From: a virus
DNA length: 25,486 bases
Strand: one strand, 5' to 3'
Virus record (IMG/VR): IMGVR_UViG_3300024264_000158
Location: 1 to 25,486 of that record
This document shows, one piece after another, positions 1,604 through 25,325 of the stretch. The position numbers and the translations under genes are program-made. How positions within the stretch are numbered: the stretch's first letter is position 1; the number at the start of each line of letters is the position of its first letter. The notes under the pieces are model-generated. The model searched no databases. It was not told the DNA's origin and saw only the letters and a list, made by a program, of their open reading frames with translations.

Positions 1604-2470
1604 TTAATTGATTTGACCGAATGGTCTCCAACTGCCAGGTGTACCACCTTTGATACATACCCACCCGATCGGGTGATTCATTTCTGGCTTGTCATTCCAA
1701 ACTATTGACCCTGTGTCCCATCTTTCTTGTGTGGGTGCCTGTGATCCTGATGCGAAAGTTCTTTCAGCAAACTTGATGTTGCCAACAACGTGTAGGCTTT
1801 CCTGTGGATTCTTGGCTCCTATACCCAACTTGCCTGTCACTGTGACATTGGTCAATGGATCATCCTGATTGCCTAACACTATGTCACCGTTTGACTTACA
1901 GGTTATCCTAGCCGTGTTGTCTGTTCCTATGGCGAACGCCGCCGGAGAATGTGTTCCAACGTAGGCATTTTTCTCGTGCATGGTTGTTATAACTTCGTAG
2001 CCATCAACGTTGACTGAAAACTCTGCTGACGGTGCCTCTGTGTTGATTCCGACCCTTTTCTGTGATGCGAAAAGTGTCTTGTCAACTTGCAGGTTTTTTA
2101 AAATTCCCAGTTGAGTTAGAGAACTTGTCTTCACACTCTTGCCCAAAGTGTCCTTCCAGATCACTTCGTTGTGATCTATCATGACCGCTTCTGTGACATT
2201 CAGTTTTGGCACCTGTGCCTCTACATATTTCAGATTCTCAACCGTGACTGTTCCCTTGACGACAAGGTCATTTTTGATCTCTATCTTGTCATCGTTGACT
2301 GTGATCTGTACGGATTCCGCCTGATCCTTGATGCCTGTACTGTTGAAATCTGTTATCCTGCCACCGTGTATGGCATCTCCGCTGATAGAATTTTCATACA
2401 CATCAACCTGTCTGACGTCAACACGTTTCTCGGCCACTCTCTCGATCTTGTTGATAGGTAATAGTGTCAT
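1604..2470 (-). CDS. Minus-strand fibre-like structural protein (288 aa)
   Basis: A 288-residue protein with two 'VGI.T..P' repeats: RVGINTEAPSAEFSVNVDG at residues 139-157 and LGIGAKNPQESLHVVG at 215-230. This is the same signature as the N-terminal head of the large plus-strand fibres (RVGIGT..P..TL.V.G). A GTVTVENLKYVEAQVPKLNV segment near residue 73 resembles the GDLTV cassette. The C-terminus (GSIVWNDKP ... IGWVCIKGGTPGSWRPFG) is of a type that closes many phage tail fibres. The ATG at 2470 lies 8 bp after a late octamer on the minus strand and has no Shine-Dalgarno sequence. It is probably a fibre or adaptor component. Its orientation against the surrounding array suggests inversion or independent acquisition. 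Confidence 0.75.
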   Translation of the reverse strand: MTLLPINKIERVAEKRVDVRQVDVYENSISGDAIHGGRITDFNSTGIKDQAESVQITVNDDKIEIKNDLVVKGTVTVENLKYVEAQVPKLNVTEAVMIDHNEVIWKDTLGKSVKTSSLTQLGILKNLQVDKTLFASQKRVGINTEAPSAEFSVNVDGYEVITTMHEKNAYVGTHSPAAFAIGTDNTARITCKSNGDIVLGNQDDPLTNVTVTGKLGIGAKNPQESLHVVGNIKFAERTFASGSQAPTQERWDTGSIVWNDKPEMNHPIGWVCIKGGTPGSWRPFGQIN

Positions 2471-2478
2471 ATAATGAA

Positions 2479-2486
2479 TATTTATG
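2479..2486 (-). promoter_or_regulatory. Late promoter octamer for the minus-strand fibre gene
   Basis: On the minus strand it reads CATAAATA, one mismatch from the T4 late consensus TATAAATA. With the usual 5-base gap the predicted start site is 2473, giving a 3-nt leader (TAT) before the ATG at 2470. Confidence 0.6.
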
Positions 2487-2512
2487 GTTGATCTCCGTCG
2501 TTGTGTTTATTT

Positions 2513-2520
2513 GGTAAATA
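2513..2520 (+). promoter_or_regulatory. Late promoter octamer for the 1231-residue fibre gene
   Basis: Reads GGTAAATA. The predicted transcript starts near 2526, leaving about 8 nt (GTAGTATT) before the ATG at 2534 and no Shine-Dalgarno sequence. It is divergent from the minus-strand octamer at 2479-2486, 26 bp away. Confidence 0.5.
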
Positions 2521-2533
2521 TCAAAGTAGTATT

Positions 2534-5500
2534 ATGGCAATTAACAGAATAAGTGGTGATATATTAGAATCGAACCTTATACGTTCGAGCGATCTGGCGT
2601 TCAATACGAATCTACTGTACGTGGATGTGGCAAACGGAAGGATCGGTGTAAAGACAGATTCTCCAGGCAATTTCGCCCTGGATGTCAACGGTAACACACG
2701 AGTACAAGGTAACCAGACCATCACCGGAGACCTGACCGTACAAGGTACCACCACAACCATAGACTCTCAACAACTAGTTGTTGAAGACAACATCATAACC
2801 ATAAATGAAAATGCATCAGGTGCCACGGACGCTGGTATAATGATCAATAGGACGGCAGAGAACAACGCATTGTTCATCTGGGACGAGACCTTAGACAAAT
2901 TTAGATTTGGTACTACTACACAGGACGGATCGACAGTCACAGACTATTCCAATTTGACTTTGGCCAAAGTGCAGGTTGGAGAACCGGCCGCGGATTCAGA
3001 CGCATCCACAAAGAAATACGTGGATGATCAGATATCAACTGTGTCATCTAGTGGTATAACAGGAGACAACGTTGAACTGAGACTGCCCACAGACTCAACC
3101 TTCGGCGATGGTGCTTACCTAGGACTTACGAGTTCTACTTCGGTCACACAGGCCATCGATGACTTGAACGAGACCATAGAAAACGTCAGGGCGGGAACAT
3201 ACCTTAAATCGGTTTCTTTCGTGGCAGATGCCACTGCGATCAGTGCCGGCGACACTGTGACACTAACGATCACAACGGTGCCAACTGCAGGTGCTGACAC
3301 CAGATACACCATAACATGGGGTGACAGTGATACCACAACAGGCACATCAGATTCAACACCGAGCCACACATACGCATCGGGTGGAACATACTCTGTGACA
3401 GTGAAAGCGTTCGAGAATGACGCGGCCACAACTGACTCATCGGGTTCATTTGCAACATCGACTAGAACAAATTACATAGTGGCCTCAACGGCAGAACCTG
3501 TGTTGACGTTCGCCATGTACGCGGCCGCATCAGGAGGTTCGGCAATCACGACTGCGGACACAGGAGACACTGTCTACCTACAGAACAACTGTACAAACAC
3601 ATCAGGTGCAACGGTCACATACGACGTTGACTGGGGAGACGGAACAGAGAACACAATCAGCGGTGACGGAGTGGCGGGTGGTTCAAGTGCCAACGGCGGA
3701 TCACGTCTAGCACACACTTACACCAACGCCAGTGGCGACGACGGATCAACAGTGGCAGGTACGGGTGCAGGAGATACCAAATATGCGATACGTCTTAGAC
3801 TGCTTACACACTCGACTGCGAACCCTAGCGTTATTCCCAAAACGGCCACAAACAATTTCGAAGTGTATTCAGAACACACACCACTTTATTCAACAGCAGA
3901 CTCAACAATCAGGGGCATCAACGAGGAATCAACATCAGGTTTCCCTGTGACATTCACTAACAACACAGCGACCAATCCTGGTAGCAACTCCGATTTCAGT
4001 GCCACACAGACATACAGTTGGGACTTCGGCGAGGGTGCGAGTGCAACTGTGGTCAACATAGGATCAGGCGGCTCTGGTGACACGGGAAATACAATCACGA
4101 ACACATTCAACTTGACTTCGGGACAACAGTCGGGTGGTACAACAAGTACATTCACAACCTCATTGACACTGGCAAACGGACACGATAATTCAACTTTCGT
4201 CAAGAACATGAACATAATAGTTGAACCAGATGTGAGGGCCAACATAGCCGGCACGGCTGTGACAGTTAACACAGGTTCAGGCGATAACAGTCTATCATTG
4301 TATGATGTGGTCGACCTTGACGGTGCTGACAGGGCCATAGCAAGATTCACTAACACCTCACAGAATGCGGACAACTATGTGTATGATTTCTTCGATGACT
4401 CAAGTTCTCTAGTCACTGTTGGCGAGGATGGATCAACTGCAGGTACCATTGGTGCAACCATTGACAAAGATTATTCAGGCACATCAGCAGGAAACATAAA
4501 CTTCAGATTCAGGGCATCAGGAACACCAGACACATTCTTCCAGGATGACGAAGAAACAATAACATTCGTGATGAAATCAACTCCAAGTGCACCAAACGGA
4601 TTGAGCAGTTTCAGTTTGGCATTGTCGGACTCGGCACAGGGAACTTCACCCAAGTTGTGTGCAAGTTTCACTGACAACACCAGTTCAGCGGACACACTAG
4701 CGGCAGGAACGTCATTGAGTTCAACAACTGCCAGAAGGTACACAAGCACATCAACCATTGACACGACCGTCATGAACGGTTTCCTAGTCAACGACGCCAA
4801 CGGCACAGGTTCAACTGTTAACCAGACCGTTACAGCATCAATCAACGCCAGCGCCGCAGGTGCTAGGACGTACACCACATCAGAAGGTGGTGCCAACAAC
4901 GGAACATTCACCAGACTGGTCACATCAGATCACAAGGACTATGACCAAGTGAACAGTTCATATCCACAGAGATTATACCTGGTCGCTGATGCCAAGATCA
5001 CACAGGATCTAGCAGACTACTCTGTTGGATTGAGTGCCCAGAGATTGGAAAGTTCAGCAGGTGGTAACACAGGATATGTACACGTGTTGAAGGACGACAT
5101 CACTGCGACACCTACAACAACGATAGGTACAGTGGCAGAGGGAACAGCAGGAACCAAGCGTTACGTGTCGGGTATTCCGTACTACAACGCAGGATCTCCC
5201 ACAGTCACAGTCACTGGTACTACAATCGAGAATTTCACGGGACAGGCCTACCAAGACACCACGTCACCACACGAAGTGGACAACGACACCAACCAGGAAT
5301 CAACTTCAGGCAACGTCATAACAGATTCAAATTTCACATACGCACAGGTAGATGGCTCTTCGACAATGCTGTCAAGTGGTGTACCTGTCACAGACACGGG
5401 AGTTGGAAGTGCCTACACCATAGGCGCTGTCACAGTGCCCATCACGAGCTCGGGTGTTAGGTCGGTCAAGACCATCAAAGCAAGAAGTAAGAACGCGAAC

Positions 5501-6229: not shown

Positions 6230-7269
6230 TGGCAATAACTGACGCAAAAAAAGTAGATTATCTTTGGAAGAAATTGGGTTACGGTGCCACCAAGACTGAC
6301 ACCAATGCGGCCAAGAAAGCACCCAACGAAGCCATAGCATCGCCATTACTATTAAGGGGTGACAACACCTGGAACAAAGCATCAAGCATTCCTACGGTGA
6401 TGCCGGGATCGAGTGCAGGTGTGGTAACTGTCTATCCCACGAGTGCACCAGACGAGACAACAAACGACGGAACAGCGACGGCCAACAGGACCTGGAAGAC
6501 AGGCCTGACCGACTGGATACCACCGGAAATTGGCTCAACATACCAGGTAAAGGTTTACATACACACTGCCAGTGATGCCGGCAACGCCGCCGCATCAGGT
6601 GACCAGGTGTTCGCGACAGGTTCAGGCAACGATGACGAATGGTTCTTTGACTACCAGTCTGGAGTGCTACACTTCATAGGTGCAAACCTACCAAACGGAA
6701 TTTCATTCACGGGCAAATCAGTTTACATATCCGGTGCCAGATACACAGGCACAAAAGGCTTACAGAATTTATCTACATCAACAGGTAACACAGAGTTCAC
6801 AGCGAACAACATTGGTAACATAGTGACCAATGCGGACATGACGTTCACCACACAGGGAACGGGACTGTTCGACTTCAACACGACGACGGGTTTGGTCGTT
6901 CCGACAGGAACAACAGGAGAAAGACCATCCGCACAGGAAGGTATCATACGCTTTAATACTACAACGGGCAAATATGAGGTCTCCCTGGACGGTTCGACCT
7001 ACACCGCGTTGCGTACAGAGGCCGCGGCCTCAAGCATAACCAAGGACGTGTTCACCGGTGACGGTTCATCAACACAGTTCACCATGACAGTGACACCAAC
7101 CAACGCCAAGAACATAATAGTCTACGTGGATGGTGTGATGCAGGAACCTACAACCAACTACACCGTTGCTACCAACGTGTTGGCGTTCACAGGTGGTGAT
7201 GATGGATCTTCCATAGAGGCACCACATGTAGGTGCACGTGTGGTTGTGATGCACGGCTTCGCTGACTAA
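6229..7269 (+). CDS. Fibre-associated structural protein (346 aa)
   Basis: A 346-residue protein whose ATG overlaps the stop of the preceding fibre gene (TAATG), suggesting translational coupling and perhaps assembly of the two products together. The N-terminus (MAITDAKKVDYLWKKLGYG) differs from the fibre heads. Residues 102-174 (STYQVKVYIHTAS, then EWFFDYQSGVLHFIGANLP and YISGARYTG) are of a type I associate with structural proteins of cyanophage-like myoviruses. Residues 222-262 are the GERPSAQEGIIRFNTTTGKYE cassette, and 270-344 the GDGSSTQFTMTV ... IIVYVDGVMQEPTTNYTV cassette, both shared with neighbours. It is convergent with a minus-strand gene, the two stops overlapping within 4 bp. 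Probable fibre or collar component; exact location unknown. Confidence 0.77.
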   Translation: MAITDAKKVDYLWKKLGYGATKTDTNAAKKAPNEAIASPLLLRGDNTWNKASSIPTVMPGSSAGVVTVYPTSAPDETTNDGTATANRTWKTGLTDWIPPEIGSTYQVKVYIHTASDAGNAAASGDQVFATGSGNDDEWFFDYQSGVLHFIGANLPNGISFTGKSVYISGARYTGTKGLQNLSTSTGNTEFTANNIGNIVTNADMTFTTQGTGLFDFNTTTGLVVPTGTTGERPSAQEGIIRFNTTTGKYEVSLDGSTYTALRTEAAASSITKDVFTGDGSSTQFTMTVTPTNAKNIIVYVDGVMQEPTTNYTVATNVLAFTGGDDGSSIEAPHVGARVVVMHGFAD

Positions 7270-7625: not shown

Positions 7626-8152
7626 TTTTTCAATTCCTCCATGTCCTTGAACAACACACACTCTGCGTTTGAACAGTAGTCCAACTGTTTGGTCTTGGGC
7701 GGGTTGCACAGGAAGTAGAACTTCATGTCCGGGTGCAACATTATCACTGACCTGAGATCCTTCAACACCTTGGGGTTTGATATGTCATAGCCCACTAGCA
7801 TTATCCTCTTCTCAGTCAATCCCAGTGCTGTCAGCAGGGCCAATGTCTGGTCGTCGGTGTTGACATCTAATGTGAGATTGAACTGTGGGGATATGGGCGG
7901 GAAACTGTGAACTTGATCATAAAACACGTACTTTTTGTACAGTTCTGGTGTGGTCACACAGTCCACAGGTGAAGGTCGCTGTTGCAGGAACCATAACAGG
8001 TCCTTTTCCTGCCTGGTCCACACATAATCTAGGTGACCCGCGTCGTGCATGTGGTCCGAAACACTGATTATAGGGCCGTATTGGCTCAATTTATCCATTG
8101 GAACTTGGCTCTTGTTCCTGCCCAGTACCGTGATATAGTTGTGCTTTTTCAT
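7622..8152 (-). CDS. Hypothetical protein, possible Rossmann-like fold (176 aa)
   Basis: A 176-residue protein beginning MKKHNYITVLGRNKSQVP. A first strand (YITVLG), an internal IMLVGYDIS strand-turn near residues 117-125 and a third strand MKFYFLCNPP near 143-152 hint at an alpha/beta Rossmann-like arrangement, but no catalytic motif can be named. I considered a DUF115-like or glycosyltransferase-like fold because of the VGYD turn and could not support it further. The gene has its own minus-strand late octamer (GTTAAATA), which leaves a predicted 4-nt leader, and lacks a Shine-Dalgarno sequence. It is coupled by a 4-bp ATGA overlap to the 119-residue gene. The composition is cytoplasmic and unlike the fibres on either side. 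Confidence 0.65.
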   Translation of the reverse strand: MKKHNYITVLGRNKSQVPMDKLSQYGPIISVSDHMHDAGHLDYVWTRQEKDLLWFLQQRPSPVDCVTTPELYKKYVFYDQVHSFPPISPQFNLTLDVNTDDQTLALLTALGLTEKRIMLVGYDISNPKVLKDLRSVIMLHPDMKFYFLCNPPKTKQLDYCSNAECVLFKDMEELKK

Positions 8153-8161
8153 ATCTTACGG

Positions 8162-8169
8162 TATTTAAC
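8162..8169 (-). promoter_or_regulatory. Late promoter octamer for the 176/119-residue gene pair
   Basis: On the minus strand it reads GTTAAATA, then CCGTA; the predicted start at 8156 gives a 4-nt leader AGAT before the ATG. It is divergent from the plus-strand octamer 21 bp away. Confidence 0.55.
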
Positions 8170-8190
8170 GACGTAATAATCCCGGTTTCA

Positions 8191-8198
8191 AATAAATA
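8191..8198 (+). promoter_or_regulatory. Late promoter octamer for the 803-residue fibre gene
   Basis: Reads AATAAATA followed by CCTACA. The predicted start is 8204, giving a 41-nt leader that contains a strong AAGGGG ribosome-binding site (8231-8236), 8 bp before the ATG. This is one of the few long-leader late units in the window. Confidence 0.65.
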
Positions 8199-8244
8199 CC
8201 TACAGTTTTGCAAGACAATCAATTATCGATAAGGGGATAAAACA

Positions 8245-10656: not shown

Positions 10657-10685
10657 GGCAAAACTAAAACCTTAGAGATAATTCT

Positions 10686-10727
10686 AAACGCCCCAAATGG
10701 TAAATACTACTGTTGGGGCGTTTTTTT
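10686..10727 (+). terminator. Intrinsic terminator after the 803-residue fibre gene
   Basis: An 11-bp perfect stem (AAACGCCCCAA pairing with TTGGGGCGTTT) encloses a 16-nt loop; the right arm runs into a 7-T tract at 10721-10727. The loop contains a late-promoter-like GGTAAATA. Confidence 0.85.
10699..10706 (+). promoter_or_regulatory. Late-promoter-like octamer inside a terminator loop
   Basis: Reads GGTAAATA, identical to the octamer upstream of 2534. The predicted start at 10712 would lie just before the right arm of the hairpin, so transcripts from it could not form the terminator. It is the only octamer seen in the gap before the gene at 10773. Confidence 0.45.
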
Positions 10728-10772
10728 ACGGCTCAATTTTATTAACACAAATCATATGGGATATATGGAACT

Positions 10773-11996: not shown

Positions 11997-12004
11997 TATA
12001 AATA
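11997..12004 (+). promoter_or_regulatory. Late promoter octamer for the 854-residue fibre gene
   Basis: Reads TATAAATA, exactly the T4 late consensus, followed by CCTAT. The predicted start is 12010, giving a 78-nt leader, the longest in the window. The leader holds AAGGAG at 12073-12078, 9 bp before the ATG. Confidence 0.75.
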
Positions 12005-15082: not shown

Positions 15083-15112
15083 ATTATAACAACTATGGGG
15101 TTGTAGCGTCAA
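15083..15112 (-). promoter_or_regulatory. Sigma70-type promoter for the Nudix gene
   Basis: On the minus strand: TTGACG (15112-15107), an 18-bp spacer, TATAAT (15088-15083), then 5 bp to the ATG at 15077. It overlaps the last codons of gp15. The expected start site is at or within a base or two of the ATG, so the transcript would be leaderless. Confidence 0.75.
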
Positions 15113-16535: not shown

Positions 16536-16537
16536 CC

Positions 16538-17707
16538 TTAATTGTCAGCCTTTGGTTTTAGTGCATCTGTCAAAGACTGCCTCTGTTTGACTGTTAATCC
16601 GTTTATTGTTGATTCTGTCGCATTGTTTACAAAACTTGTTTTATAGTTGCCCCTAGAATCATTGTTCGTTGTAGTTATTCTAACACTGTCTTCGATTTTG
16701 ACCCATCTGACTCCGTCGTACCTGAACAATCTGTTGGGTAAGAAATCTGTCCTCAAGAAGTAATCGCCTTGATCAACGCCGGATGTTGGAAATGTAATAC
16801 CAAATCCTGCTGGATTTCCGTTTGGTGCAACACCGTCTCCGTCCAAGTAGAATCCGTAGTGTGAACTTGCTGGTGTGTCTATGGTAGCATTCACCGTGTT
16901 ATCACTGCTGGCCCTCTGTGCTTCTGTGTTCACATTTTCTGTCCTGATGTTGCCTCTTTCATCGATTGGTGCAACATAGTATTGTTTGTAATTGAATCCT
17001 GCCTTTGGAGCATCCTGCTCTGCCTGTGCAACGATCTGATCGTTGATGGTTTTCTCTCTGTTGTATGTGCTCATGTAACTGGCAACTGATCCTGTAGTTG
17101 TTGCATCGCCTATGATGTCTTTGAATTCTTGTGAATCCACTAAAGTTTTCATCTTCAATCTTAGGAGATGTGGCCACCAAGTTTGACTAAATCCTTCCGC
17201 GGCTCTGTTCACATCTTCTACCACGTAGTATCTTTTCAATGCAATTGGCACACTCTCGTCTAGTGAATAATCTTCCTTCATGTGTGGGAATTCTATTACA
17301 TCACCACTCATTGGTTTCCTACCAATTCTTTCTACGATATCGTTCAAATGTACTGTAAGGAATAGTGTGTCATTCTGTAGGAACATACCAAACTGGGAAA
17401 GGTTGAAATCTGCATCTTGCACATTGTATATTCCTCGCACAGTGTACACATCGCTAGAATATTTCCTGTCTCTGTTTTCTAAAAATAATAAATCCTGTAT
17501 GGTAGTCTCGTTAAGATCTGATCCTGTCACCCTAGGCTGACTGGGACTCGCCGGTCCGTCTTTGTTTGTGTCTCCCTGATCGTAGGGTCCTAGATATTTG
17601 TGTAGGTGTAAGTCTGTGCCACCCACGGTAAACATCTCCTTGATGTTGCGATCGAAGAACTTGTAGTCATTGCCCTTTTCAGGCTTAAAAATGGATAATC
17701 TTGGCAT
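16538..17707 (-). CDS. gp14: Neck protein gp14 (389 aa)
   Basis: The start is placed at ATG 17707 (MPRLSIFKPEKGNDYKFFDR); the ATG 9 bp upstream lies too close to the late octamer and would be at or before the predicted transcript start. gp14 and gp13 form the collar to which the tail attaches after DNA packaging. The family shows in the first ~205 residues: GGTDLHLHKYLGP, IQDLLFLENRDRKY, YTVRGIYNVQDADFNLSQFG, FLTVHLNDIVERIGRKPMSG and KRYYVVEDVNRAAEGFSQTW. T4 gp14 has about 256 residues, so this protein carries a C-terminal extension ending in a LFRYDGVRWVKIEDSVRIT motif. It is the first gene of the minus-strand unit, transcribed away from gp13 from an adjacent late promoter. Confidence 0.85.
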   Translation of the reverse strand: MPRLSIFKPEKGNDYKFFDRNIKEMFTVGGTDLHLHKYLGPYDQGDTNKDGPASPSQPRVTGSDLNETTIQDLLFLENRDRKYSSDVYTVRGIYNVQDADFNLSQFGMFLQNDTLFLTVHLNDIVERIGRKPMSGDVIEFPHMKEDYSLDESVPIALKRYYVVEDVNRAAEGFSQTWWPHLLRLKMKTLVDSQEFKDIIGDATTTGSVASYMSTYNREKTINDQIVAQAEQDAPKAGFNYKQYYVAPIDERGNIRTENVNTEAQRASSDNTVNATIDTPASSHYGFYLDGDGVAPNGNPAGFGITFPTSGVDQGDYFLRTDFLPNRLFRYDGVRWVKIEDSVRITTTNNDSRGNYKTSFVNNATESTINGLTVKQRQSLTDALKPKADN

Positions 17708-17715
17708 ATCATACA

Positions 17716-17723
17716 TATTTATT
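17716..17723 (-). promoter_or_regulatory. Late promoter octamer for the gp14-gp15 unit
   Basis: Reads AATAAATA on the minus strand, followed by TGTAT. The predicted start is 17710, leaving a 3-nt leader (GAT) before the ATG at 17707. It is divergent from the gp13 octamer with 14 bp between them. Confidence 0.65.
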
Positions 17724-17737
17724 GCGTAGGCAATGAC

Positions 17738-17745
17738 TATAAATA
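17738..17745 (+). promoter_or_regulatory. Late promoter octamer for gp13
   Basis: Reads TATAAATA (full consensus) followed by TGAGT and then ATG at 17751, so the predicted first transcribed base is the A of that ATG. Upstream in-frame ATGs at 17733 and 17745 lie before or inside the octamer. Confidence 0.7.
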
Positions 17746-17750
17746 TGAGT

Positions 17751-18512
17751 ATGTCAGAACTACAAACAGGACAACAGGAAATTTTTGATTACGTCAAGAA
17801 CAATCTCGGTGACGGGATGATTGACGTGGAATTAGACCCAAAACACTATCAAACGGCACTGGAAAGGGCTGTGAACAAATTCAGACAGCGATCTTCGAAT
17901 GCTGTGGAAGAATCATATGCTTTCCTTGAATTGAAGAAGAATCAGAACACCTACATACTGCCAGATGAGATCATCAATGTGAGGAATCTTAACAGGAGGA
18001 CCGTGGGATCAAGGACTGAAGGTGGAGAAGGTGGTACATTGTTCGAACCATTCAACTTGGCCTACACAAACACCTATCTACTGAGGGCAGGTGCGACAGG
18101 CGGTTTGGCAACTTACTATGCTTTCGCATCGTACCAAGAACTTGTTGGCAAGATGTTTGGTAGTTTCATACAGTTCCATTTTGACGTGGCAACTAAAAAA
18201 TTAACTATCACACAAAGACCTAGGGCAGATGACGAGACAGTTCTGATGCACACAGATAACTACAGACCTGACATCACACTGTTCAAAGACATATATTCAA
18301 AACCATGGATCAGAGACTACACCCTGGCCGTGTCTAAGATTATGTTAGGTGAGGCCAGAGGCAAATTCAACACCATTGCAGGTCCACAAGGTGGTACGAC
18401 ATTGAACGGTGATGCGTTGAAGAACGAGGGACAGGCAGAGATCGAGAGACTGGAAGCAGACATAGGAAACTTCCAAGAAGGTGGAACACCACACAGTTTT
18501 GTTATTGGTTAA
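17751..18512 (+). CDS. gp13: Neck (head completion) protein gp13 (253 aa)
   Basis: gp13 joins gp14 in the neck that seals the packaged head. The start at 17751 gives MSELQTGQQEIFDYVKNNLG; alternatives at 17733 and 17745 fall before or within the late octamer. The N-terminal pattern 'GDGMIDVELDPKHYQTALER' corresponds to the T4 '[20 protein letters not shown]' segment. The C-terminus (WIRDYTLAVSKIMLGEARGK, then GGTTLNGDALKNEGQAEIE and a final FVIG) matches T4 gp13's WVKDYATALAKELNG ... GGVTIDGQRLIEEARLEKE ... ILVG. The length (253) is shorter than the 309 of T4. It is divergent from gp14 and followed by a 49-bp gap that holds the next late promoter. The assignment is strong because both ends match. 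Confidence 0.9.
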   Translation: MSELQTGQQEIFDYVKNNLGDGMIDVELDPKHYQTALERAVNKFRQRSSNAVEESYAFLELKKNQNTYILPDEIINVRNLNRRTVGSRTEGGEGGTLFEPFNLAYTNTYLLRAGATGGLATYYAFASYQELVGKMFGSFIQFHFDVATKKLTITQRPRADDETVLMHTDNYRPDITLFKDIYSKPWIRDYTLAVSKIMLGEARGKFNTIAGPQGGTTLNGDALKNEGQAEIERLEADIGNFQEGGTPHSFVIG

Positions 18513-18545
18513 CTTCTAGTACCAGATTCCTTTACCAAAAATCAT

Positions 18546-18553
18546 TTTAAATA
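18546..18553 (+). promoter_or_regulatory. Late promoter octamer for the 60-residue gene
   Basis: Reads TTTAAATA followed by CAAGT. The predicted start is 18559, giving a 3-nt leader (ATC) before the ATG at 18562. There is no Shine-Dalgarno sequence. Confidence 0.5.
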
Positions 18554-18561
18554 CAAGTATC

Positions 18562-18744
18562 ATGACAGATTCCAGATACAAAAAACTTCCTAGATGCACC
18601 TTGGAAGAATTAACCGATATGGTCGACGACCTAGAGAACATGTCTATACATGCCCTTAAAGAAAAGAAACTGAGTATGCGTAGACTGGTATTAACACAGA
18701 TTCATGATGTCAAAAAAGAGATTGAAAAACGTCTAAAAAAATAG
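18562..18744 (+). CDS. Small charged helical protein (60 aa)
   Basis: Sixty residues, MTDSRYKKLPRCTLEELTDM followed by Leu/Glu/Lys-rich sequence ending in EIEKRLKK. Nearly all of it after residue 12 looks alpha-helical and amphipathic, as in a short coiled coil or helical hairpin. No known motif is present. It lies between gp13 and gp1 in the same direction. A late octamer lies 8 bp upstream, and the -35 of the gp1 promoter falls inside its last codons. The size and charge would fit a regulatory or assembly-adaptor peptide, but there is no direct evidence. Coding status is supported by the promoter, the tight packing and the lack of any other gene in the space. Confidence 0.6.
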   Translation: MTDSRYKKLPRCTLEELTDMVDDLENMSIHALKEKKLSMRRLVLTQIHDVKKEIEKRLKK

Positions 18745-18750
18745 TATAAT
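18722..18750 (+). promoter_or_regulatory. Sigma70-type promoter for gp1 dNMP kinase
   Basis: TTGAAA (18722-18727), a 17-bp spacer and TATAAT (18745-18750), then 7 bp to the ATG at 18758. A start site 7 bp after the -10 box would be 18757, so the message would be essentially leaderless. The host enzyme could read it early in infection. Confidence 0.78.
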
Positions 18751-18757
18751 AAACCTT

Positions 18758-19411
18758 ATGCTGATAGGTGTAGTAGGTTTGATAGGTTCCGGCAAAGGCA
18801 CAGTCTCGGATAGGCTGGTAGAACGACACGGATATCAAAAAGACAGTTTTGCCAAAAGTTTAAAAGATGCCGTGGCGTCCATGTTCAATTGGGACAGAGC
18901 TCTCCTCGAAGGAGACACAGAATCCAGCAGGCAATGGCGTGAACAACCGGACAAGTTCTGGAGTGAGAAATTTGGCAAGCCCACAACTCCAAGATGGGTG
19001 TTGCAGTACTTCGGCACGGAAGTGATGCGAGGCCAGATGTACGACGGTATTTGGGTGGACAGTTGCATTGGTAGATACAAAGGACAAAACACCGTGATAG
19101 CAGACACAAGGTTCCCCAATGAAGTGAAACAGATCAGAGAACGTGGTGGCAAGATAATACTGGTCAAAAGGGGCCAGGATCCTGATTGGTTCGTTGATTA
19201 CACAGAGGGCAACATAGAACCCAAAGGCATACACAGTTCAGAGTATGCATGGGCCAAAGAAGAGTTTGATTTCGTTATAGATAACAACGGCACGAAAGAA
19301 GAATTATACGACAAGATCGACGACCTAATCGTCAGCGACAAGATCACCAACACGCCATCCCAATCTACGGGTACTGCCCAACCTCTGGCAATTGGCGCAA
19401 ACAGTTTTTAG
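18758..19411 (+). CDS. gp1: Deoxynucleoside monophosphate kinase gp1 (217 aa)
   Basis: The T4 gene 1 product phosphorylates dTMP, dGMP and hydroxymethyl-dCMP to diphosphates for phage DNA synthesis. A Walker A loop is present at residues 7-15 (GLIGSGKGT) after an N-terminal beta strand (MLIGVVG). A 'GYQKDSFAKSLKDAVASMF' segment, 'PRWVLQYFGTEVMR' and 'NTVIADTRFPNEVKQIRERG' with its conserved DTRFPNE follow, as in phage dNMP kinases of this family; the DFVIDNNGTKEELYDKID stretch is typical of their C-terminal half. The length is close to T4's 241. The last ~20 residues (SQSTGTAQPLAIGANSF end) are a low-complexity tail. It has its own sigma70-like promoter and no Shine-Dalgarno sequence. Its last 87 bp overlap the convergent HNH-like gene. 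Confidence 0.92.
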   Translation: MLIGVVGLIGSGKGTVSDRLVERHGYQKDSFAKSLKDAVASMFNWDRALLEGDTESSRQWREQPDKFWSEKFGKPTTPRWVLQYFGTEVMRGQMYDGIWVDSCIGRYKGQNTVIADTRFPNEVKQIRERGGKIILVKRGQDPDWFVDYTEGNIEPKGIHSSEYAWAKEEFDFVIDNNGTKEELYDKIDDLIVSDKITNTPSQSTGTAQPLAIGANSF

Positions 19412-19684
19412 ATTACTAGCAGAAGTATTCCTCAGATCACCGTCAACGAACAGCACATCCAGTTGTGATTTGTCCTGTGCTTTGAATCCACACAATTCAC
19501 ATTTCTTGTGTTTCTTGTATCCAGATCTCTGTAGTGCGGTCACACCTCCTACACGCTTGCCGGCCCGTTTCCTGATACAGGTGTCGCACCGACTACGCCA
19601 ATACACCCTACCATATCTCTTGTAGGCATAGGCCCTGGGTTTGGTCTTACACTCCGTACACAACGGTCTGTCCTTGTACTGCAT
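19325..19684 (-). CDS. HNH / endonuclease VII-like zinc protein (119 aa)
   Basis: The start is ATG 19684 (MQYKDRPLCTECKTKPRAYA), not the upstream codon at 19861, because a late octamer ends 5 bp before it and the extra 59 residues would overlap the gp18 leader. Four CxxC pairs are visible: C9/C12 with C33/C36, and C62/C65 with C96/C99. The second half has the layout of HNH endonucleases (CELCGF, then L-D-V-L-F-V-D-G-D-x-x-N, NLKTVCANCQ). Small proteins of this kind are common in cyanophage-like myoviruses and are related to Holliday-junction resolvase endonuclease VII. The usual His of the VHHxDG motif is replaced by Leu78-Phe79, and the last His by Gln100, so nuclease activity is doubtful. 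It may act as a DNA- or RNA-binding zinc protein. Confidence 0.75.
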   Translation of the reverse strand: MQYKDRPLCTECKTKPRAYAYKRYGRVYWRSRCDTCIRKRAGKRVGGVTALQRSGYKKHKKCELCGFKAQDKSQLDVLFVDGDLRNTSASNLKTVCANCQRLGSTRRLGWRVGDLVADD

Positions 19685-19689
19685 GTGTG

Positions 19690-19697
19690 TATTTACG
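19690..19697 (-). promoter_or_regulatory. Late promoter octamer for the HNH-like gene
   Basis: On the minus strand it reads CGTAAATA, then CACAC, then the ATG at 19684; the predicted first base of the mRNA is the A of the start codon. Confidence 0.55.
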
Positions 19698-19753
19698 TCG
19701 CCTATATAGGCACCTGGAAAACGGTAAATTCTGTCGTAAAAACCATACGATTG

Positions 19754-19761
19754 AATAAATA
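19754..19761 (+). promoter_or_regulatory. Late promoter octamer for the tail sheath gene
   Basis: Reads AATAAATA followed by ACTCT. The predicted start is 19767, giving a 34-nt leader with a canonical AAGGAG at 19785-19790, 10 bp before the ATG, as expected for a very abundant protein. Confidence 0.7.
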
Positions 19762-19800
19762 ACTCTAGTATATACGTAACTTGCAAGGAGAATACGAAAA

Positions 19801-22800
19801 ATGGCATTAACATCACCAGGAGTAGAGGTTTCAGTAATAAACGAAAGTTTCTACGTACCATCAGATGCGGGTACTACACCACTATTCATAGTAGCATCAT
19901 CACAGGACAAGAAAAACGGAGCGGGAGACGGCACTGCTGTAGGAACAACTACTGCCAACGCCAACACTGCTTACTTGATCTCGTCACAGAGAGAATTAAC
20001 AGAGACTTTTGGAGATCCAAAATTCTACACAAACGCATCAGGAACTTCGCTTAACGGTTATGAGTTGAACGAGTACGGCTTACAAGCGGCCTACAGTTTC
20101 CTAGGAGTTGCCAACAGAGCATACGTCCTAAGAGCGAACGTGGACACAGCAGATTTAGTTGGAAGTGCTACGGCACCAACAGCGAACCCAACAGATGGCA
20201 CATACTGGTTTGACCTTGCATCAAGCAGTTATGGTTTATTTGAGTGGTCTGCTACCAATCAATCTTTCACAACAATTACTCCAACACTTATCACTTCAAC
20301 AAGTGATCTAGTTGGCGGTGTCTCAACTGGTGCACCAAAAACTTCAATAGGGGTAATAGGTGATTACGCAATCAACACAACACACGTTACCAACAAGATC
20401 TACAAGAAGACAGCAAGTAACACTTGGGTACAAGTTGGTTCAACAGACTGGCACACATCTTTACCGGTAGTGACAGTTGCTTCAGGAACCACAGTAACCA
20501 GTGGACAAACTTTCGTAATGAACGGTGTTACAATTACAACTTCAGGCACAACACTTTCAAACGTTGCGTCAGTGATCGGATCAAATGTTACTAATGTGAC
20601 AGCAAGTGTAAACAGCACAACAGGCAACCTAGAAATCTTCCACAACGGTAAGGCGCTAGGTGACTCAACAGGTGGTGCTAACACAATCAGATTTGAAGAG
20701 GGTACTGGTGTACTAGCATCCTTAGGAATCACAGCAGGCGTTAAAAATGGTGTGAAACTTTTACAAGACAAACACACTAACAGACCTACCTGGAAGACAG
20801 CAGACGAGAACAGACCCAACGGTTCAGTTTGGTTCAAGACAACTTCTGCAAACTCAGGTGCGGCATTGGTGACAAAACTTTACAGCACAGCAAGTGCTAG
20901 TTTCTCTCAAGTTGCTAGTCCACTTTATGCCACACACCACTCTGCGATCTACAACCTAGACGCGGCGACTGGTGGAACTGCATTAAGCACAGGCACAGTG
21001 TACGCACAGTACAACGTGACTGAGGAATCAATGACAGCGGCCGATGCCGCAGATGCTACCCCTAACGTTGGTGATTTCCAACTGTTCAGATACGAGGGCG
21101 GTGCTACAACTATCACTAGTGGAAACACATCTCCAACTTTCACAAGTTCAAACACTTTCAAAATACAAGAGTCAGTGAAGAACCAAGAAGCATTAAACAG
21201 TGCGGTAACAGTAACACTAGGTGGTACTGGTGCTGATGACTTTATCGCGGCAGTGAACGGTGCAGGCCTAACAAACGTTTCAGCAAGTAAGACAACTGCT
21301 GGTGCGATCGTTATGACACACAAACTGGGTGGTGAGTTCAGAATGACTGAAGAAGGCATGACAGGAACACCATTAGCAGATGCAGGTTTCAGTGCAACGA
21401 CGGCACACAGTTATGGAACATACACTGCAAACAGTTCAACTTTGATCGACAACTTGTATGACCTACCAACAGGTGAGAGCCTTGACTCAAGTGCTAACAC
21501 AGGTATCATGGCAAGTAACTGGAAGAGATTGAGTTACACTGCATCAACAAGTGCTCCAAGCAATGAGCCAGCAGACGGCACATTATGGTACCACACTGCG
21601 ACAGACGAAGCAGACATCATGGCACACAATGGTACAACTTGGGTTGGATATGCGACAGCATACTCAAGCACAGATCCAAATGGTCCACAGTTCAAAGCAA
21701 CAGCACCAACTACGCAATCAGACGGTACTGCACTTGTGACTAACGACTTATGGATTGACACTTCAGACTTAGAAAACTATCCAAAACTTTACAAATACAA
21801 CACATCAGCAACTTTGAGTTCTACAAACACAGCGAACCAGGTTGCAGTAACTACATCAGGCGCGGCTTGGGAATTAGTTGACAAAGCAGACCAAACCACA
21901 GAAGACGGTATTGTGTTCGCGGATGCTAGATATCACACAGCGGCAGACAAGGCGGATTCATTGTCAACAGGAGGTGCGGGTACAGCCAGCTCAATCAAAG
22001 ACTTATTGAGTGACGGCTTCCTAGATCCAGATGCTCCAAACCCAGACAACTACCCACAAGGTATCTTGCTATGGAACACAAGAAGATCTGGTTACAATGT
22101 TAAGGAATACAAGAACAGTTACATCACAACTACGAAATATCCAGGAAGCGGTGCAACTGGTTTAGGTAACATCAGAGCAAGTAACGAGAGCGTATCAACT
22201 TACTTCCCTGACAGATGGGTTACTAAATCAAGCAACAACGCAGACGGTTCTGGTTCTTTCGGTAGGAAAGCACAGAGAAAAGTGATCGTTGAACAACTTA
22301 AATCAGAGATCGACACTAACCAAGCAATCAGAGAAGACCAAAGAGGCTTCAACGTAATTGCTTGTCCTGGTTACCCAGAGTTAATGTCAAACATGATCAA
22401 CCTAAACACAGACAGAAACAACACAGCGTTTGTAGTAGGTGACACACCTATGAGATTAGAAGGTACATCAACTGCAATCCAAAACTGGGCAAACAACACA
22501 GCGTCAGCACTTGACAACGGTGAAGACGGCCTAGTGAGCTCAAGTGATTACTTGGGTGTGTTTTATCCATCTGGTCAAACAACAGACAACACAGGTAAAT
22601 CAATTGTTGTTCCACCATCACACATGATGTTGAGAACACTGGCCAACAACGACAACATCGCTTTCCCATGGTTCGCACCATCAGGAACAAGAAGAGGTAT
22701 CGTTGACAACGCCACATCAGTTGGTTACATAGACACGGCGTCTGGAGAGTTTAAAACAATATCTGTTACGGAGTCAGTGAGAGATTCAATGCACGAGGTC

Positions 22801-23208
22801 AAAGTGAATCCAATCACTTTCTTCTCAGGTGCAGGAATCGTTAACTTTGGTAACTTGACTAAAACATCGGCAAGTTCTGCATTGGACAGAATCAACGCTT
22901 CAAGATTAGCAGTGTATCTAAGAACACAACTAGATGCAATCGCTAAACCATTCATCTTTGAACCAAATGATGAATTGACTAGGAACGAGATCAAGGGTGC
23001 AGTAGAATCATTCTTGTTGGAGTTAACAGGTCAGAGAGCATTGTATGACTTCCTAGTAGTTTGTGATGACACGAACAACACACCTACAAGGATTGACAGG
23101 AACGAACTTTATGTGGATATAGCAATTGAGCCGATCAAGTCAGTTGAATTCATCTACATACCGTTGAGAATCAAAAACACAGGAGAAATTGCAAAGTTAG
23201 GGAACTAA
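19801..23208 (+). CDS. gp18: Contractile tail sheath protein gp18, greatly enlarged (1135 aa)
   Basis: The sheath surrounds the tail tube and contracts at infection. The N-terminus (MALTSPGVEVSVINESFYVP, then FIVASSQDKKNG, LTETFGDPKFY, YGLQAAYSFLGVANRAYVLR) and the C-terminal ~380 residues (LLWNTRRSGYNVKEY, QRGFNVIACPGYPELMSNM, FPWFAPSGTRRGIVDNATSV, VNPITFFSGAGIVNFGNLT, INASRLAVYLRTQLDAIAKP, FIFEPND and VDIAIEPIKSVEFIYIPLRI) are classic sheath core. Between them, residues ~120-750 are a Thr/Ser/Gly-rich insertion. It has about five copies of a 'P.DGT.W(F/Y)' unit ending in Y.(Y/W)N...W..V (near 129, 186, 337, 590 and 647) and two copies of a longer beta/alpha unit (about 223-313 and 455-539). 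T4 gp18 has 659 residues. The inserts probably face outwards on the contracted and extended sheath. A strong AAGGAG precedes the ATG. Confidence 0.93.
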   Translation: MALTSPGVEVSVINESFYVPSDAGTTPLFIVASSQDKKNGAGDGTAVGTTTANANTAYLISSQRELTETFGDPKFYTNASGTSLNGYELNEYGLQAAYSFLGVANRAYVLRANVDTADLVGSATAPTANPTDGTYWFDLASSSYGLFEWSATNQSFTTITPTLITSTSDLVGGVSTGAPKTSIGVIGDYAINTTHVTNKIYKKTASNTWVQVGSTDWHTSLPVVTVASGTTVTSGQTFVMNGVTITTSGTTLSNVASVIGSNVTNVTASVNSTTGNLEIFHNGKALGDSTGGANTIRFEEGTGVLASLGITAGVKNGVKLLQDKHTNRPTWKTADENRPNGSVWFKTTSANSGAALVTKLYSTASASFSQVASPLYATHHSAIYNLDAATGGTALSTGTVYAQYNVTEESMTAADAADATPNVGDFQLFRYEGGATTITSGNTSPTFTSSNTFKIQESVKNQEALNSAVTVTLGGTGADDFIAAVNGAGLTNVSASKTTAGAIVMTHKLGGEFRMTEEGMTGTPLADAGFSATTAHSYGTYTANSSTLIDNLYDLPTGESLDSSANTGIMASNWKRLSYTASTSAPSNEPADGTLWYHTATDEADIMAHNGTTWVGYATAYSSTDPNGPQFKATAPTTQSDGTALVTNDLWIDTSDLENYPKLYKYNTSATLSSTNTANQVAVTTSGAAWELVDKADQTTEDGIVFADARYHTAADKADSLSTGGAGTASSIKDLLSDGFLDPDAPNPDNYPQGILLWNTRRSGYNVKEYKNSYITTTKYPGSGATGLGNIRASNESVSTYFPDRWVTKSSNNADGSGSFGRKAQRKVIVEQLKSEIDTNQAIREDQRGFNVIACPGYPELMSNMINLNTDRNNTAFVVGDTPMRLEGTSTAIQNWANNTASALDNGEDGLVSSSDYLGVFYPSGQTTDNTGKSIVVPPSHMMLRTLANNDNIAFPWFAPSGTRRGIVDNATSVGYIDTASGEFKTISVTESVRDSMHEVKVNPITFFSGAGIVNFGNLTKTSASSALDRINASRLAVYLRTQLDAIAKPFIFEPNDELTRNEIKGAVESFLLELTGQRALYDFLVVCDDTNNTPTRIDRNELYVDIAIEPIKSVEFIYIPLRIKNTGEIAKLGN

Positions 23209-23213
23209 TTTTG

Positions 23214-23221
23214 AATAAATA
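23214..23221 (+). promoter_or_regulatory. Late promoter octamer before the tail tube gene
   Basis: Reads AATAAATA; its last A is also the first base of the AGGAG ribosome-binding site. The predicted start (23227) lies downstream of that site, so a transcript starting here would have a 5-nt leader without it. Confidence 0.5.
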
Positions 23222-23225
23222 GGAG
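23221..23225 (+). promoter_or_regulatory. Ribosome-binding site of the tail tube gene
   Basis: AGGAG, 6 bp before the ATG at 23232. It would be used on read-through mRNA from gp18, because it overlaps the late octamer and is upstream of that promoter's predicted start. Confidence 0.65.
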
Positions 23226-23231
23226 AAACAG

Positions 23232-23858
23232 ATGGCAATATCAACTTTATCAAAATTTACAGTACCACTAGCAAACGATCAGAGTTCAGCATCACAGGGT
23301 TTATTGATGCCAAAACTACAGTATCGTTTCAGAGCAATCCTGGAAAATTTTGGAGTATCAACACCGAGATCAGAACTAACAAAACAAGTTATTGATATCA
23401 CAAGACCCAACTTGACTTTTGACAACGTGACACTGGATGTGTACAACTCAAAAGTTTATGTTGCAGGTAAACACACTTGGGATCCAATCACAATCACTCT
23501 AAGAGATGATGTCAACAACTCAGTTACTAAACTGGTTGGCGAACAGATCCAGAAACAGTTTGATTTCTTTGAACAGAGTTCAGCGGCATCAGGAATTGAC
23601 TACAAATTCACAACTAGAATTGAAATGCTAGATGGTGGTAATGGAGCAAGTACACCAAATGTGTTAGAAACATTTGAATTATATGGTGCATATGTTGAGA
23701 ACGTAAACTACAACACGTTAGCATACGCAACTTCGGATCCAGCAACTATCACAATGTCAATAAGATACGACAACGCAATCCAAACTCCAACAGGAACAGG
23801 AATTGGTACAGCGGTATCTAGAACGATCGGTACTCTAAGTACAGGTGGTGGACAGTAA
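23232..23858 (+). CDS. gp19: Tail tube protein gp19 (208 aa)
   Basis: Hexamers of gp19 stack to form the inner tube through which DNA passes. The sequence MAISTLSKFTVPLANDQSSA, QGLLMPKLQYRFRAILENFG, SELTKQVIDITRPNLTFDNV, KVYVAGKHTWDPITITLRDD, VGEQIQKQFDFFEQSSAASG, YKFTTRIEMLDGGNGASTPN, VLETFELYGAYVENVNY and ATITMSIRYDNAIQTPTG follows the tube protein of cyanophage-like T4 relatives almost segment by segment. T4 gp19 has 163 residues; marine relatives are longer, like this one. It follows gp18 by 23 bp, the order typical of these phages, and is followed by a strong terminator 30 bp after the stop. No oddity in the sequence itself. Confidence 0.94.
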   Translation: MAISTLSKFTVPLANDQSSASQGLLMPKLQYRFRAILENFGVSTPRSELTKQVIDITRPNLTFDNVTLDVYNSKVYVAGKHTWDPITITLRDDVNNSVTKLVGEQIQKQFDFFEQSSAASGIDYKFTTRIEMLDGGNGASTPNVLETFELYGAYVENVNYNTLAYATSDPATITMSIRYDNAIQTPTGTGIGTAVSRTIGTLSTGGGQ

Positions 23859-23888
23859 TACAAAAATTAAGTAAGCAATTATAACATC

Positions 23889-23915
23889 AAAAGCGTCTTT
23901 ATAGGCGCTTTTTTT
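23889..23915 (+). terminator. Intrinsic terminator after the tail tube gene
   Basis: The stem AAAAGCGTCT pairs with AGGCGCTTTT (one T-G wobble) around a TTAT loop and runs into seven T. It ends the gp18-gp19 unit; a late octamer follows after a 5-bp gap. Confidence 0.92.
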
Positions 23916-23920
23916 GTGGC

Positions 23921-23928
23921 CATAAATA
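23921..23928 (+). promoter_or_regulatory. Late promoter octamer for the second tube-fold protein
   Basis: Reads CATAAATA, then CGAGT, then ATG at 23934. The predicted first base of the mRNA is the A of the start codon. The in-frame GTG at 23916 lies between terminator and octamer and is rejected as a start. Confidence 0.65.
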
Positions 23929-23933
23929 CGAGT

Positions 23934-25325
23934 ATGCCAAGCATAAACAACTTCCTAAAAGGTTTCCAGGACGGATTACCAGGTATGAAAGACTACCAAC
24001 ACGCATCGAGATTGTACCTAGACGACAATTTCAAGTTGATGCCAAAACAGAAGTTCCTGTTCCACGTGGTTTTCAATACGGATGAGACCCTGTTCGTTGA
24101 TGGATTCAACGCCAACGAGAGGTATCAACTGAACATGTTAGTGAAAGCATGTGATCTACCCAAGTACAACATGAGTTATGAGGAGAAGACACAGTACAAC
24201 AAGAAGATGTATGCTGGTACCAGGATAGCGTACGAACCCGTGAACATTACATTCCACGATGACCACGCAGACACTGTGAATGCATTCTGGAAGAAGTACT
24301 ACGAATACAACATAGCGGATAGTATAGGCATGAACAGTGATCTTACAATAAACAACACCAAGGATGATTACTACGATTTTGGCGATGCGAGACAGACCAC
24401 CAAGTTTGGTATGGACACACCGAGGCAGAGACAGAAACCATACCTCAAGGGCATAGAGATTTTCGTGCTACACAAAAAACGTTTCACATCAATGACCCTT
24501 GTCAATCCAGTTATAGGATCTTTCTCTCACGACAATTTAGATCAGGCAGATGGTACAGGCGTTATGAACAACACAATGCAGATATTATACGAAACTGTGA
24601 TCTACAAATCAGGCATAGTAAACAAAAATAATGTACCAGGGTTTGCAACGATCAACTATGACAACTCTCCTAGTCCGTTGACCATACTAGGAGGAGGAAC
24701 AAATAGCATATTTGGTCCTGGAGGCGTCGTGGACGGCATCGGTTCTGTGATCAGGAATGTACAATCAGGAAATATCTTGGGTGCAATCTTAGGTGCTTCT
24801 AACACCTACAACAACGCCAAGAAGATCAAGAAGTCAGCCGTGAAAGAAGAACTGAAAGGTATTGCCAAAGACGGAATACTAGAAGTTGGGAAACAGGCGG
24901 GCTCGATAACCAACCCAGTTGCACAGTTCAGTGTGGGTGCGGCGGCCATAGTGGGTGCTTCAGCATTGGCATCAGCGAGGGGTACCGCGGACAACAATGA
25001 TCAGGCCAACAACACAGTTATAACAAATTCTGCTGTGGACAATGTGAACTTCCTGGGTGCAGATGAATCTTTCAATCTTGTGTCAAACAATAATAGTGTC
25101 AGAGACGAGATAGCGGCCGCAATATATTTCAGAGACATAGGTTCTCGTAAAGGTCTCACAATTTCTCAATCTAATATAGAGTATGAGGCATCATCTACAA
25201 ACATAAAAAACGTGTACACCAGCAAGGCAATCACAGATATAAGAAAATTAGTCACAGAGGGATATATAAAAATTGAAAGACAGACACAGGATGTCGATAT
25301 AGCAACAGAGAAAGCAACAATATAA
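23934..25325 (+). CDS. gp19-like tube-fold baseplate protein, candidate tube initiator (463 aa)
   Basis: The start at 23934 (MPSINNFLKGFQDGLPGMKD) is set by the octamer ending 5 bp upstream. Residues ~38-215 have the layout of tube-fold proteins: KFLFHVVFNTD strand, VKACDLPKYNMSYEEKTQYN, RIAYEPVNITFHDDHADTVN and FWKKYYEYNI, then GIEIFVLHKKRFTSMTLVNP and MQILYETVIY. Position after gp19 and this fold suggest the baseplate tube-initiator gp54 or a related hub/tube protein. T4 gp54 (320 residues) likewise ends in a Gly/Ser/Leu/Ile-rich tail. Here the C-terminal part has Gly-rich (ILGGGTNSIFGPGGVVDGIG) and small-residue hydrophobic stretches (VGAAAIVGASALASARG), then an Asn-rich linker and a charged end. 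The gp54 assignment is an inference; the tube-like N-terminal domain is fairly clear. The stop overlaps the next ATG by 1 bp. Confidence 0.7.
   Translation: MPSINNFLKGFQDGLPGMKDYQHASRLYLDDNFKLMPKQKFLFHVVFNTDETLFVDGFNANERYQLNMLVKACDLPKYNMSYEEKTQYNKKMYAGTRIAYEPVNITFHDDHADTVNAFWKKYYEYNIADSIGMNSDLTINNTKDDYYDFGDARQTTKFGMDTPRQRQKPYLKGIEIFVLHKKRFTSMTLVNPVIGSFSHDNLDQADGTGVMNNTMQILYETVIYKSGIVNKNNVPGFATINYDNSPSPLTILGGGTNSIFGPGGVVDGIGSVIRNVQSGNILGAILGASNTYNNAKKIKKSAVKEELKGIAKDGILEVGKQAGSITNPVAQFSVGAAAIVGASALASARGTADNNDQANNTVITNSAVDNVNFLGADESFNLVSNNNSVRDEIAAAIYFRDIGSRKGLTISQSNIEYEASSTNIKNVYTSKAITDIRKLVTEGYIKIERQTQDVDIATEKATI

Follow-up and report, generated by a model that had tools for sequence, protein, structure and literature searches.

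The DNA analysed here, a 25,486-base IMG/VR virus record (IMGVR_UViG_3300024264_000158; the whole stretch is called the window), carries a T4-like neck and tail region of the jumbo-phage type in which several genes begin a few bases downstream of a late promoter box with a TAAATA core. The same spacing is conserved among relatives of this phage. The explanation held with considerable confidence is that gp55-type late promoters at a fixed distance from AUG create a class of leaderless mRNAs in this uncultured marine jumbo-phage lineage, beside a second class led by Shine–Dalgarno (SD) sequences. The boxes would be late promoters of the T4 type, to which a gp55-type sigma factor of the phage directs host RNA polymerase, and their fixed distance would make transcription begin at the A of AUG or 1–3 bases earlier. 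Such mRNAs would be too short at the 5′ end to hold an SD sequence and would be translated as leaderless messages by 70S ribosomes at a 5′-terminal AUG. A second set of genes, including those for the tail sheath and the single-stranded DNA-binding protein (SSB), would be transcribed from the same kind of promoter with SD-bearing leaders of about 25–85 nt. The split between the two sets might also determine protein dose.

A preliminary description of the window had named a set of boxes and their spacings, and all of these were located. The gap, defined as the number of bases separating TAAATA from ATG, was 5 at 17751, 23934 and 19684(−), 8 at 2470(−), 17707(−) and 18562, 9 at 8152(−) and 13 at 2534. 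The leaders of 34–78 nt claimed for 8245, 12088 and 19801, with AAGGGG, AAGGAG and AAGGAG, respectively, were also found, their lengths by T4 geometry being 41, 78 and 34 nt. The octamer presented there as the common element held in its TAAATA core and its position but not as an exact sequence, as TATAAATA itself occurs at two window sites only. Octamers within one mismatch of TATAAATA numbered 19 in the window against 15.8 expected, which is no excess over chance; exact octamer counting was therefore dropped in favour of TAAATA and its position. The arrangement TAAATA-N5-8-ATG occurred six times in the window, compared with a mean of 0.71 and a maximum of 4 in 300 dinucleotide shuffles. With starts kept fixed, 6 of the 21 window starts had TAAATA at a gap of 5–8, compared with a mean of 0.11 and a maximum of 2 among 2000 shuffles of the upstream regions. 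No SD sequence precedes the leaderless-class starts, the box and its 5–8 following bases occupying the SD region by position.

The focal lineage is frequent among viral contigs (484 confirmed stretches with one bait and at least 599 with another), and loci of relatives were picked with two baits. Near-identical contigs are common among these relatives, so counts were made by distinct context and by family. Starts were called with a simple, crude gene caller whose output includes spurious open reading frames (ORFs). Across 159 loci, 615 distinct TAAATA sites lay within 100 bases of an ATG opening at least 60 codons and 462 of these had a gap of 5, 6, 7 or 8 (206, 81, 65 and 110 sites, respectively), which is the sharp peak at 5–8 that had been predicted beforehand for such a count in relatives. 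Outside the peak, gap 3 accounted for ten sites, gap 4 for one, gap 9 for one and gap 10 for 13, with 16 sites at gaps 9–12 together; the gap-3 sites represent an ATG within the neck-gene spacer that opens another ORF. The modal gap of the 49 gene families was 5–8 in 16, 2–4 in three, 9–15 in four and 17–85 in 26, and the gap shifts among 5, 6, 7 and 8 inside families. TAAATA stood at a gap of 5–8 before 504 of 1545 distinct genes, while the other 14 hexamers of composition A4T2 did so before 2–175, the highest of these controls being overlapping registers of the TAAATA box.

The spacing is held by homologues while the surrounding sequence drifts. For the neck gene gp13, the gap was exactly 5 in all 76 homologues examined (50 distinct contexts). 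These 76 came from 80 loci found, of which L113 and L114 have no upstream sequence and L109 and L154 were left out of the comparison; a separate look at the latter two gave a gap of 5 in both, as did five further loci, including those in both metagenome-assembled genome (MAG) bins described below. A divergent promoter pair was present at gp13 in 76 of 76 relatives examined, with start codons 41–44 bases apart (43 bases between 17707(−) and 17751 in the window). This leaves almost no room for leaders unless the promoters lie inside the opposite gene. For the tube-fold gene, the gap was 5 in 77 of 80 relatives and 8 in three, and the hairpin that precedes its promoter in the window was also seen in upstream regions of relatives.

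Leaderless-type starts were called for gp13 in 97 of 101 cases (the four exceptions being starts called too far upstream), for the tube-fold gene in 100 of 100, for the phrog_11591 neck gene in 99 of 99 (gap 6–8), for the small ORF of the 18562 family in 73 of 73 (gap 6–8), for the virion structural protein phrog_14802 in 71 of 71, for the terminase large subunit in 41 of 41 and for the MNPKNSQ and MTKKLED families in 30 of 30 and 80 of 84. The HNH-like family was leaderless in 46 of 62 calls and in 62 of 62 once starts further in and one GTG were allowed; in the other 16, a start at or after the called one lay at gap 5 (14 ATG, one GTG) or gap 8 (one ATG). Among four homologues each in large contigs, the 2470(−) gene had gap 6 in three and gap 8 in one, and the 2534 gene had gap 8 in two, gap 13 in one and gap 10 in one. 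At two minus-strand loci, L142 and L241, a GTG start lies exactly 5 bases after TAAATA and may be a leaderless GUG start.

That promoters of a single kind serve two translation classes, as the preliminary description had proposed, is supported by gene family. Leadered genes carry the same box some 30–90 bases upstream together with an SD sequence, and this combination was called for the sheath in 73 of 74 loci and for SSB in 13 of 14; the family of the 12088 gene has a gap of about 83. The major head protein gene (phrog_138) is without a box and had a called SD in two of three loci, and the portal gene has TATAAT at gap 5 (single locus).

Transcription start sites were predicted from T4, in which the late octamer begins at −13 (PMC2988020), which puts +1 at the sixth base downstream of it. 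Under this geometry, the lower edge of the peak at gap 5 would be the position at which the A of AUG is +1, any shorter gap cutting the AUG off, and the upper edge at gap 8 would correspond to a leader of at most 3 nt. Part of the expected signature is present. The sixth base after the box was a purine at 82 % of 75 distinct leadered sites, where the fifth base was T in 51 %, and at 98 % of gap-8 sites (n=85), where it was preceded by T in 82 %. A T directly before ATG was found at 63 % of 342 distinct leaderless starts, compared with 20 % of 210 SD starts and 33 % in two other classes.

A second type of box occurs at the same distance. The dNMP kinase and NUDIX families have TATAAT instead of the late box, mostly at gaps of 6 and 5, and this is kept in relatives. 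Over the lineage, 109 of 311 distinct TATAAT sites had a gap of 5–8, with peaks at 5 (39 sites) and 6 (56 sites); among the controls, TTAAAT (which may overlap the late box) gave 99 of 326, TTATAA (which may overlap TATAAT) gave 58 of 271, and the median was 16 of 285. These two families may thus have a sigma70-type leaderless arrangement alongside the late one. The presence of two box types at one distance from AUG indicates that the distance, and hence the 5′-terminal AUG, is probably under selection.

A gp55-type late sigma gene (phrog_12791) is present in both MAG bins that contain the gp13 gene of the lineage (G021 and G022; E-values of 2.6e-85 and 6.6e-82). It was also detected in HTVC008M, Atu_ph07 and PA5oct and is annotated in Mosig; it was found in none of 14 control genomes, in none of 20 lineage viral contigs, which are fragments, and was not seen in the window. 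The sigma-bearing MAG contigs show the promoter pattern, 9 of 20 sites on one and 2 of 7 on the other having a gap of 5–8. The bins are Candidatus Pelagibacter Bin_64 and Rickettsiales MED657 (31 stretches pattern-matched, three confirmed). Lineage contigs within them (L247, L248, L249 and L264–L273) hold gp13 and late sigma genes, with portal and baseplate genes in MED657. This co-binning is a weak hint at the host, because the GC content of the measured phage sequences is 34–45 % and that of a SAR11 sample is 28 %. TATAAT-N5-8-ATG exceeded a reversed-pattern control in 13 of 13 genus members, mostly modestly. Four tRNA genes were found in 17 lineage stretches and gave no hint of the host.

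The distribution of the spacing among named phages was examined in whole genomes of T4, Syn9, HTVC008M, Mosig and Melnitz, in 220 of 252 kb of P-SSM2, 200 of 490 kb of Atu_ph07, 100 of 287 kb of PA5oct and 100 of 469 kb of Phosso, and in the tail-tube region of RaK2. In the phage collection, the nearest named matches to the tail tube of the window were from Phosso (Sinorhizobium; 47 %), Atu_ph07 (Agrobacterium; 44 %) and PA5oct (Pseudomonas; 40 %). Among ATAAATA sites with a near ORF, a gap of 5–8 was observed at 0 of 38 in T4, 0 of 24 in Syn9 and 1 of 38 in P-SSM2, and at 0 of 32, 1 of 28 and 0 of 19 in the portions of Atu_ph07, PA5oct and Phosso. In Phosso, Atu_ph07, PA5oct and RaK2, the tail-tube gene is preceded by a box about 25–45 bases away and by an SD-like sequence. 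The arrangement is therefore not a general design of T4-like phages, a possibility touched on in the preliminary description, as nearly all spacings in these six T4-like or jumbo relatives exceed 8 bases. HTVC008M (12 of 30 sites; binomial P=8e-10 against A5T2 controls) and Mosig (7 of 39; P=0.004) gave a different result. Of 15 pelagimyophage loci of the tail-tube-like gene, 14 had gap 5 and one had gap 6. For the phrog_429 gene, 31 loci were found and 24 examined, 18 with gap 5 and six with gap 8; HTVC008M is among these pelagimyophages. Both the focal lineage and a separate T4-like clade show the trait; it was not observed in those named phages that are the nearest structural relatives. The pelagimyophages HTVC008M and Mosig resemble the lineage in being T4-like, in having gp55 and in the TAAATA at gap 5 before these two genes, but a smaller share of their sites is involved (weaker in Mosig) and they are Kyanoviridae of 141–147 kb.

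Table 1. Candidate promoter boxes, genes and a terminator-like element in the window. Classes are predictions from T4 geometry
Feature	Position	Strand	Comment
Late promoter box TATAAATA	17738..17745	+	5 bases before ATG 17751; leaderless by T4 geometry
gp13-like neck gene, head-tail adaptor Ad2, phrog_211	17751..18512	+	Leaderless class
Late promoter box AATAAATA	17716..17723	−	8 bases before ATG 17707; divergent from gp13 promoter
Virion structural protein, phrog_11591	16538..17707	−	Leaderless class
Late promoter box TTTAAATA	18546..18553	+	8 bases before ATG 18562
60-aa ORF without family match	18562..18744	+	Leaderless class
Late promoter box CGTAAATA	19690..19697	−	5 bases before ATG 19684
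HNH-like endonuclease gene	19325..19684	−	phrog_2255, E-value 1.6e-5; leaderless class
Terminator-like hairpin and T run	23889..23916	+	Ends a few bases 5′ of the next box; read directly
Late promoter box CATAAATA	23921..23928	+	5 bases before ATG 23934
Tail-tube-fold gene, phrog_4542	23934..25325	+	Leaderless class
Late promoter box CATAAATA	2479..2486	−	8 bases before ATG 2470
Gene with tail-fibre-like stretch (phrog_23059, residues 229–287)	1604..2470	−	Leaderless class
Box GGTAAATA	2513..2520	+	13 bases before ATG 2534; leader about 8 nt, without SD; intermediate case
Box GTTAAATA	8162..8169	−	9 bases before ATG 8152; leader about 4 nt; intermediate case
Late promoter box AATAAATA	8191..8198	+	46 bases before ATG 8245; AAGGGG in leader; leadered class
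Late promoter box TATAAATA	11997..12004	+	83 bases before ATG 12088; AAGGAG in leader; leadered class
Late promoter box AATAAATA	19754..19761	+	39 bases before tail sheath ATG 19801; AAGGAG in leader; leadered class
Box AATAAATA	23214..23221	+	10 bases before tail-tube ATG 23232; GGAGA directly after box
Sigma70-like TATAAT	18745..18750	+	7 bases before ATG 18758 (dNMP kinase)
Sigma70-like TATAAT (TGTTATAAT)	15083..15088	−	5 bases before ATG 15077 (NUDIX)

Two further features of the window were recorded. The loop of a terminator-like hairpin at 10686–10727, upstream of the 10773 gene, contains a GGTAAATA box; the hairpin reads CCCCAA...TTGGGG and is followed by a T run. The three large genes at 2534, 8245 and 12088 share an N-terminus of the kind MAI-RI-G--L--NL-R.

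Start codons other than the ATG following the box were also considered. In-frame start codons at or before the box occur in the window at ATG 17733, ATG 17716 (minus strand) and GTG 23916, and by T4 geometry all three would fall outside the mRNA. An in-frame ATG overlapping the box, 6 bases before the gp13 start, is present in 41 of 50 distinct contexts and absent from nine, and an in-frame GTG precedes the tube-fold box in 17 of 17 contexts. For the tube-fold gene, the GTG is out of frame in MED657 (gap 4) and an out-of-frame ATG takes its place at locus L231 (gap 7). These nine gp13 contexts, together with L231 and MED657, argue against initiation further upstream in the box region, and the ATG after the box is probably the start.

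Several observations weigh against leaderless transcription from fixed-distance late promoters. The MED657 tube-fold gene has a gap of 4 (L248, L249 and L268; three loci, one MAG), which strict T4 geometry would forbid. Some genes could use an upstream start in the box region, given the alternative codons in 41 of 50 gp13 and 17 of 17 tube-fold contexts. The start-site signature is uneven: at gap-6 and gap-7 sites, T (60 %) or C (50 %) and not a purine predominates at the sixth position beyond the box, so starts there probably shift, for example to the A of AUG. These three points slightly lower the confidence placed in the interpretation. In addition, gaps of 9–15 occur, within the window at 8152(−), 2534 and 23232, and the MTKKLED family truly loses the exact hexamer in four loci (three contigs). 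Among 1201 distinct called starts, 369 (miscalled ORFs included) have neither a box nor a called SD, which suggests that other non-SD initiation may operate. The baseplate wedge (two loci) and hub (one locus) genes, low-copy in T4, are not leaderless-type, which makes the proposed link to protein dose a loose one. Only 3 of 31 ATAAATA sites in Melnitz have a gap of 5–8 (P=0.10), and no clear leaderless peak was seen at 177 SAR11 starts (200-kb sample of one genome). Finally, the geometry used for the predicted start sites is borrowed from T4.

It is unlikely that the promoters are real but that most protein comes from upstream read-through transcripts, with near-AUG starts being minor. In 32 of 35 distinct contexts of the MTKKLED family, an open frame of at least 60 codons ends at the TAA of the box, these genes directly following another, as read-through would have it. 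The SD sequence of the tail-tube gene at 23232, a family with gap 10 in 77 of 85 SD-plus-box calls, would by T4 geometry likewise be transcribed only from upstream. However, read-through is hard to apply to divergent genes and to genes behind terminators, and without selection on near-AUG transcripts the gap distribution would not have such sharp edges.

A broader proposal, and a quite improbable one, is that leaderless initiation is genome-wide in these phages: TAAATA and TATAAT promoters would both start RNA at AUG, with low-copy virion genes leaderless and the most abundant genes SD-led. The infected ribosome may be tuned for leaderless initiation, for example by a phage ribosomal protein bS21, which is encoded by HTVC008M, Mosig and Melnitz and on a G022 contig. 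This idea is weak because Atu_ph07, PA5oct and Phosso also carry bS21 and lack the spacing; bS21 is not discriminating and was rejected as the cause. No bS21 was found in T4, Syn9, P-SSM2, RaK2 or the viral contigs G001–G010. The bS21 gene L355 (G022:C5:42599-42748) lies on a contig with the lineage promoter pattern.

Genome compaction, in which minimal intergenic space would put promoters near starts and leader length would be unselected, is very unlikely. Compaction would fit the short spacer between gp13 and its divergent neighbour (43 bases in 68 of 76 loci), but a smooth tail would then be expected, not the edge between gaps 5–8 and gaps 9–12. Long leaders before the sheath and SSB genes are kept in the same phages, and near-AUG sites are all but absent from T4, Syn9 and P-SSM2. 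Least probable of all is that TAAATA before ATG is an A/U-rich translation signal on longer read-through mRNAs and no promoter: starts with neither box nor SD, if some non-SD initiation is common, and the missing purine at gap-6 and gap-7 sites would suit it, but genes led by an SD have the box too, well upstream and with a purine where transcription would begin. The box also follows closely on a terminator at 23934 and forms divergent pairs, and two families use TATAAT at the same distance.

Late promoters predicted to give leaderless and SD-led classes can be compared with known systems. T4 late promoters (gp55/gp33/gp45) are similar in their 8-base TATA-like box with a TAAATA core, in serving head and tail genes and in the presence of a gp55-type sigma gene. 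They differ in spacing, none of the 38 near-ORF ATAAATA sites of T4 having a gap of 5–8 compared with three-quarters of the TAAATA sites of the lineage, and the first two octamer bases are poorly kept in the lineage. Leaderless mRNAs have been reported for the Thermus phage phiYS40, with host IF2 up and IF3 down (PMC3594737, available portion); this is another phage in another host, and the likeness concerns its reported leaderless mRNAs. Lambda cI and other classical leaderless mRNAs have a 5′-terminal AUG at which initiation is mostly by 70S ribosomes (PMC9031893, available portion). Lambda cI is a single gene, whereas the lineage would have a conserved class across a late regulon. In bacteria, a gene is most probably leaderless when a TA-like signal lies about 10 bp ahead of its start codon (PMC3160421, available portion); those boxes are host sigma70-like, while the lineage uses mostly the phage late box, with TATAAT in two families. 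Phage transcripts are also described as often leaderless in the AR9 paper (PMC5312081, available portion). Leaderless phage mRNAs are thus already known, as in lambda cI and phiYS40; a T4-type late regulon split into leaderless and SD classes would be new. Among the matches listed in a literature search conducted mostly outside subscription journals, none gave an account of leaderless late mRNAs in T4-like marine phages or of a T4-type late regulon divided in this way, and promoter terms were not found in the text of PMC12753301.

The available part of a 2020 survey reports no success in predicting late promoters for pelagimyophages (PMC7029224), and a start-proximal spacing might explain why the cyanophage method failed to find them there. 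If confirmed, the arrangement would mean that, in a marine group represented by hundreds of IMG/VR stretches, virion genes (those for neck and terminase among them) are translated by leaderless initiation, beside SD-led genes under promoters of the same kind. Start-codon-proximal promoters would then be an annotation tool for metagenome phages, and these phages would offer a natural system in which to study how ribosomes choose between leaderless and Shine–Dalgarno mRNAs during infection.

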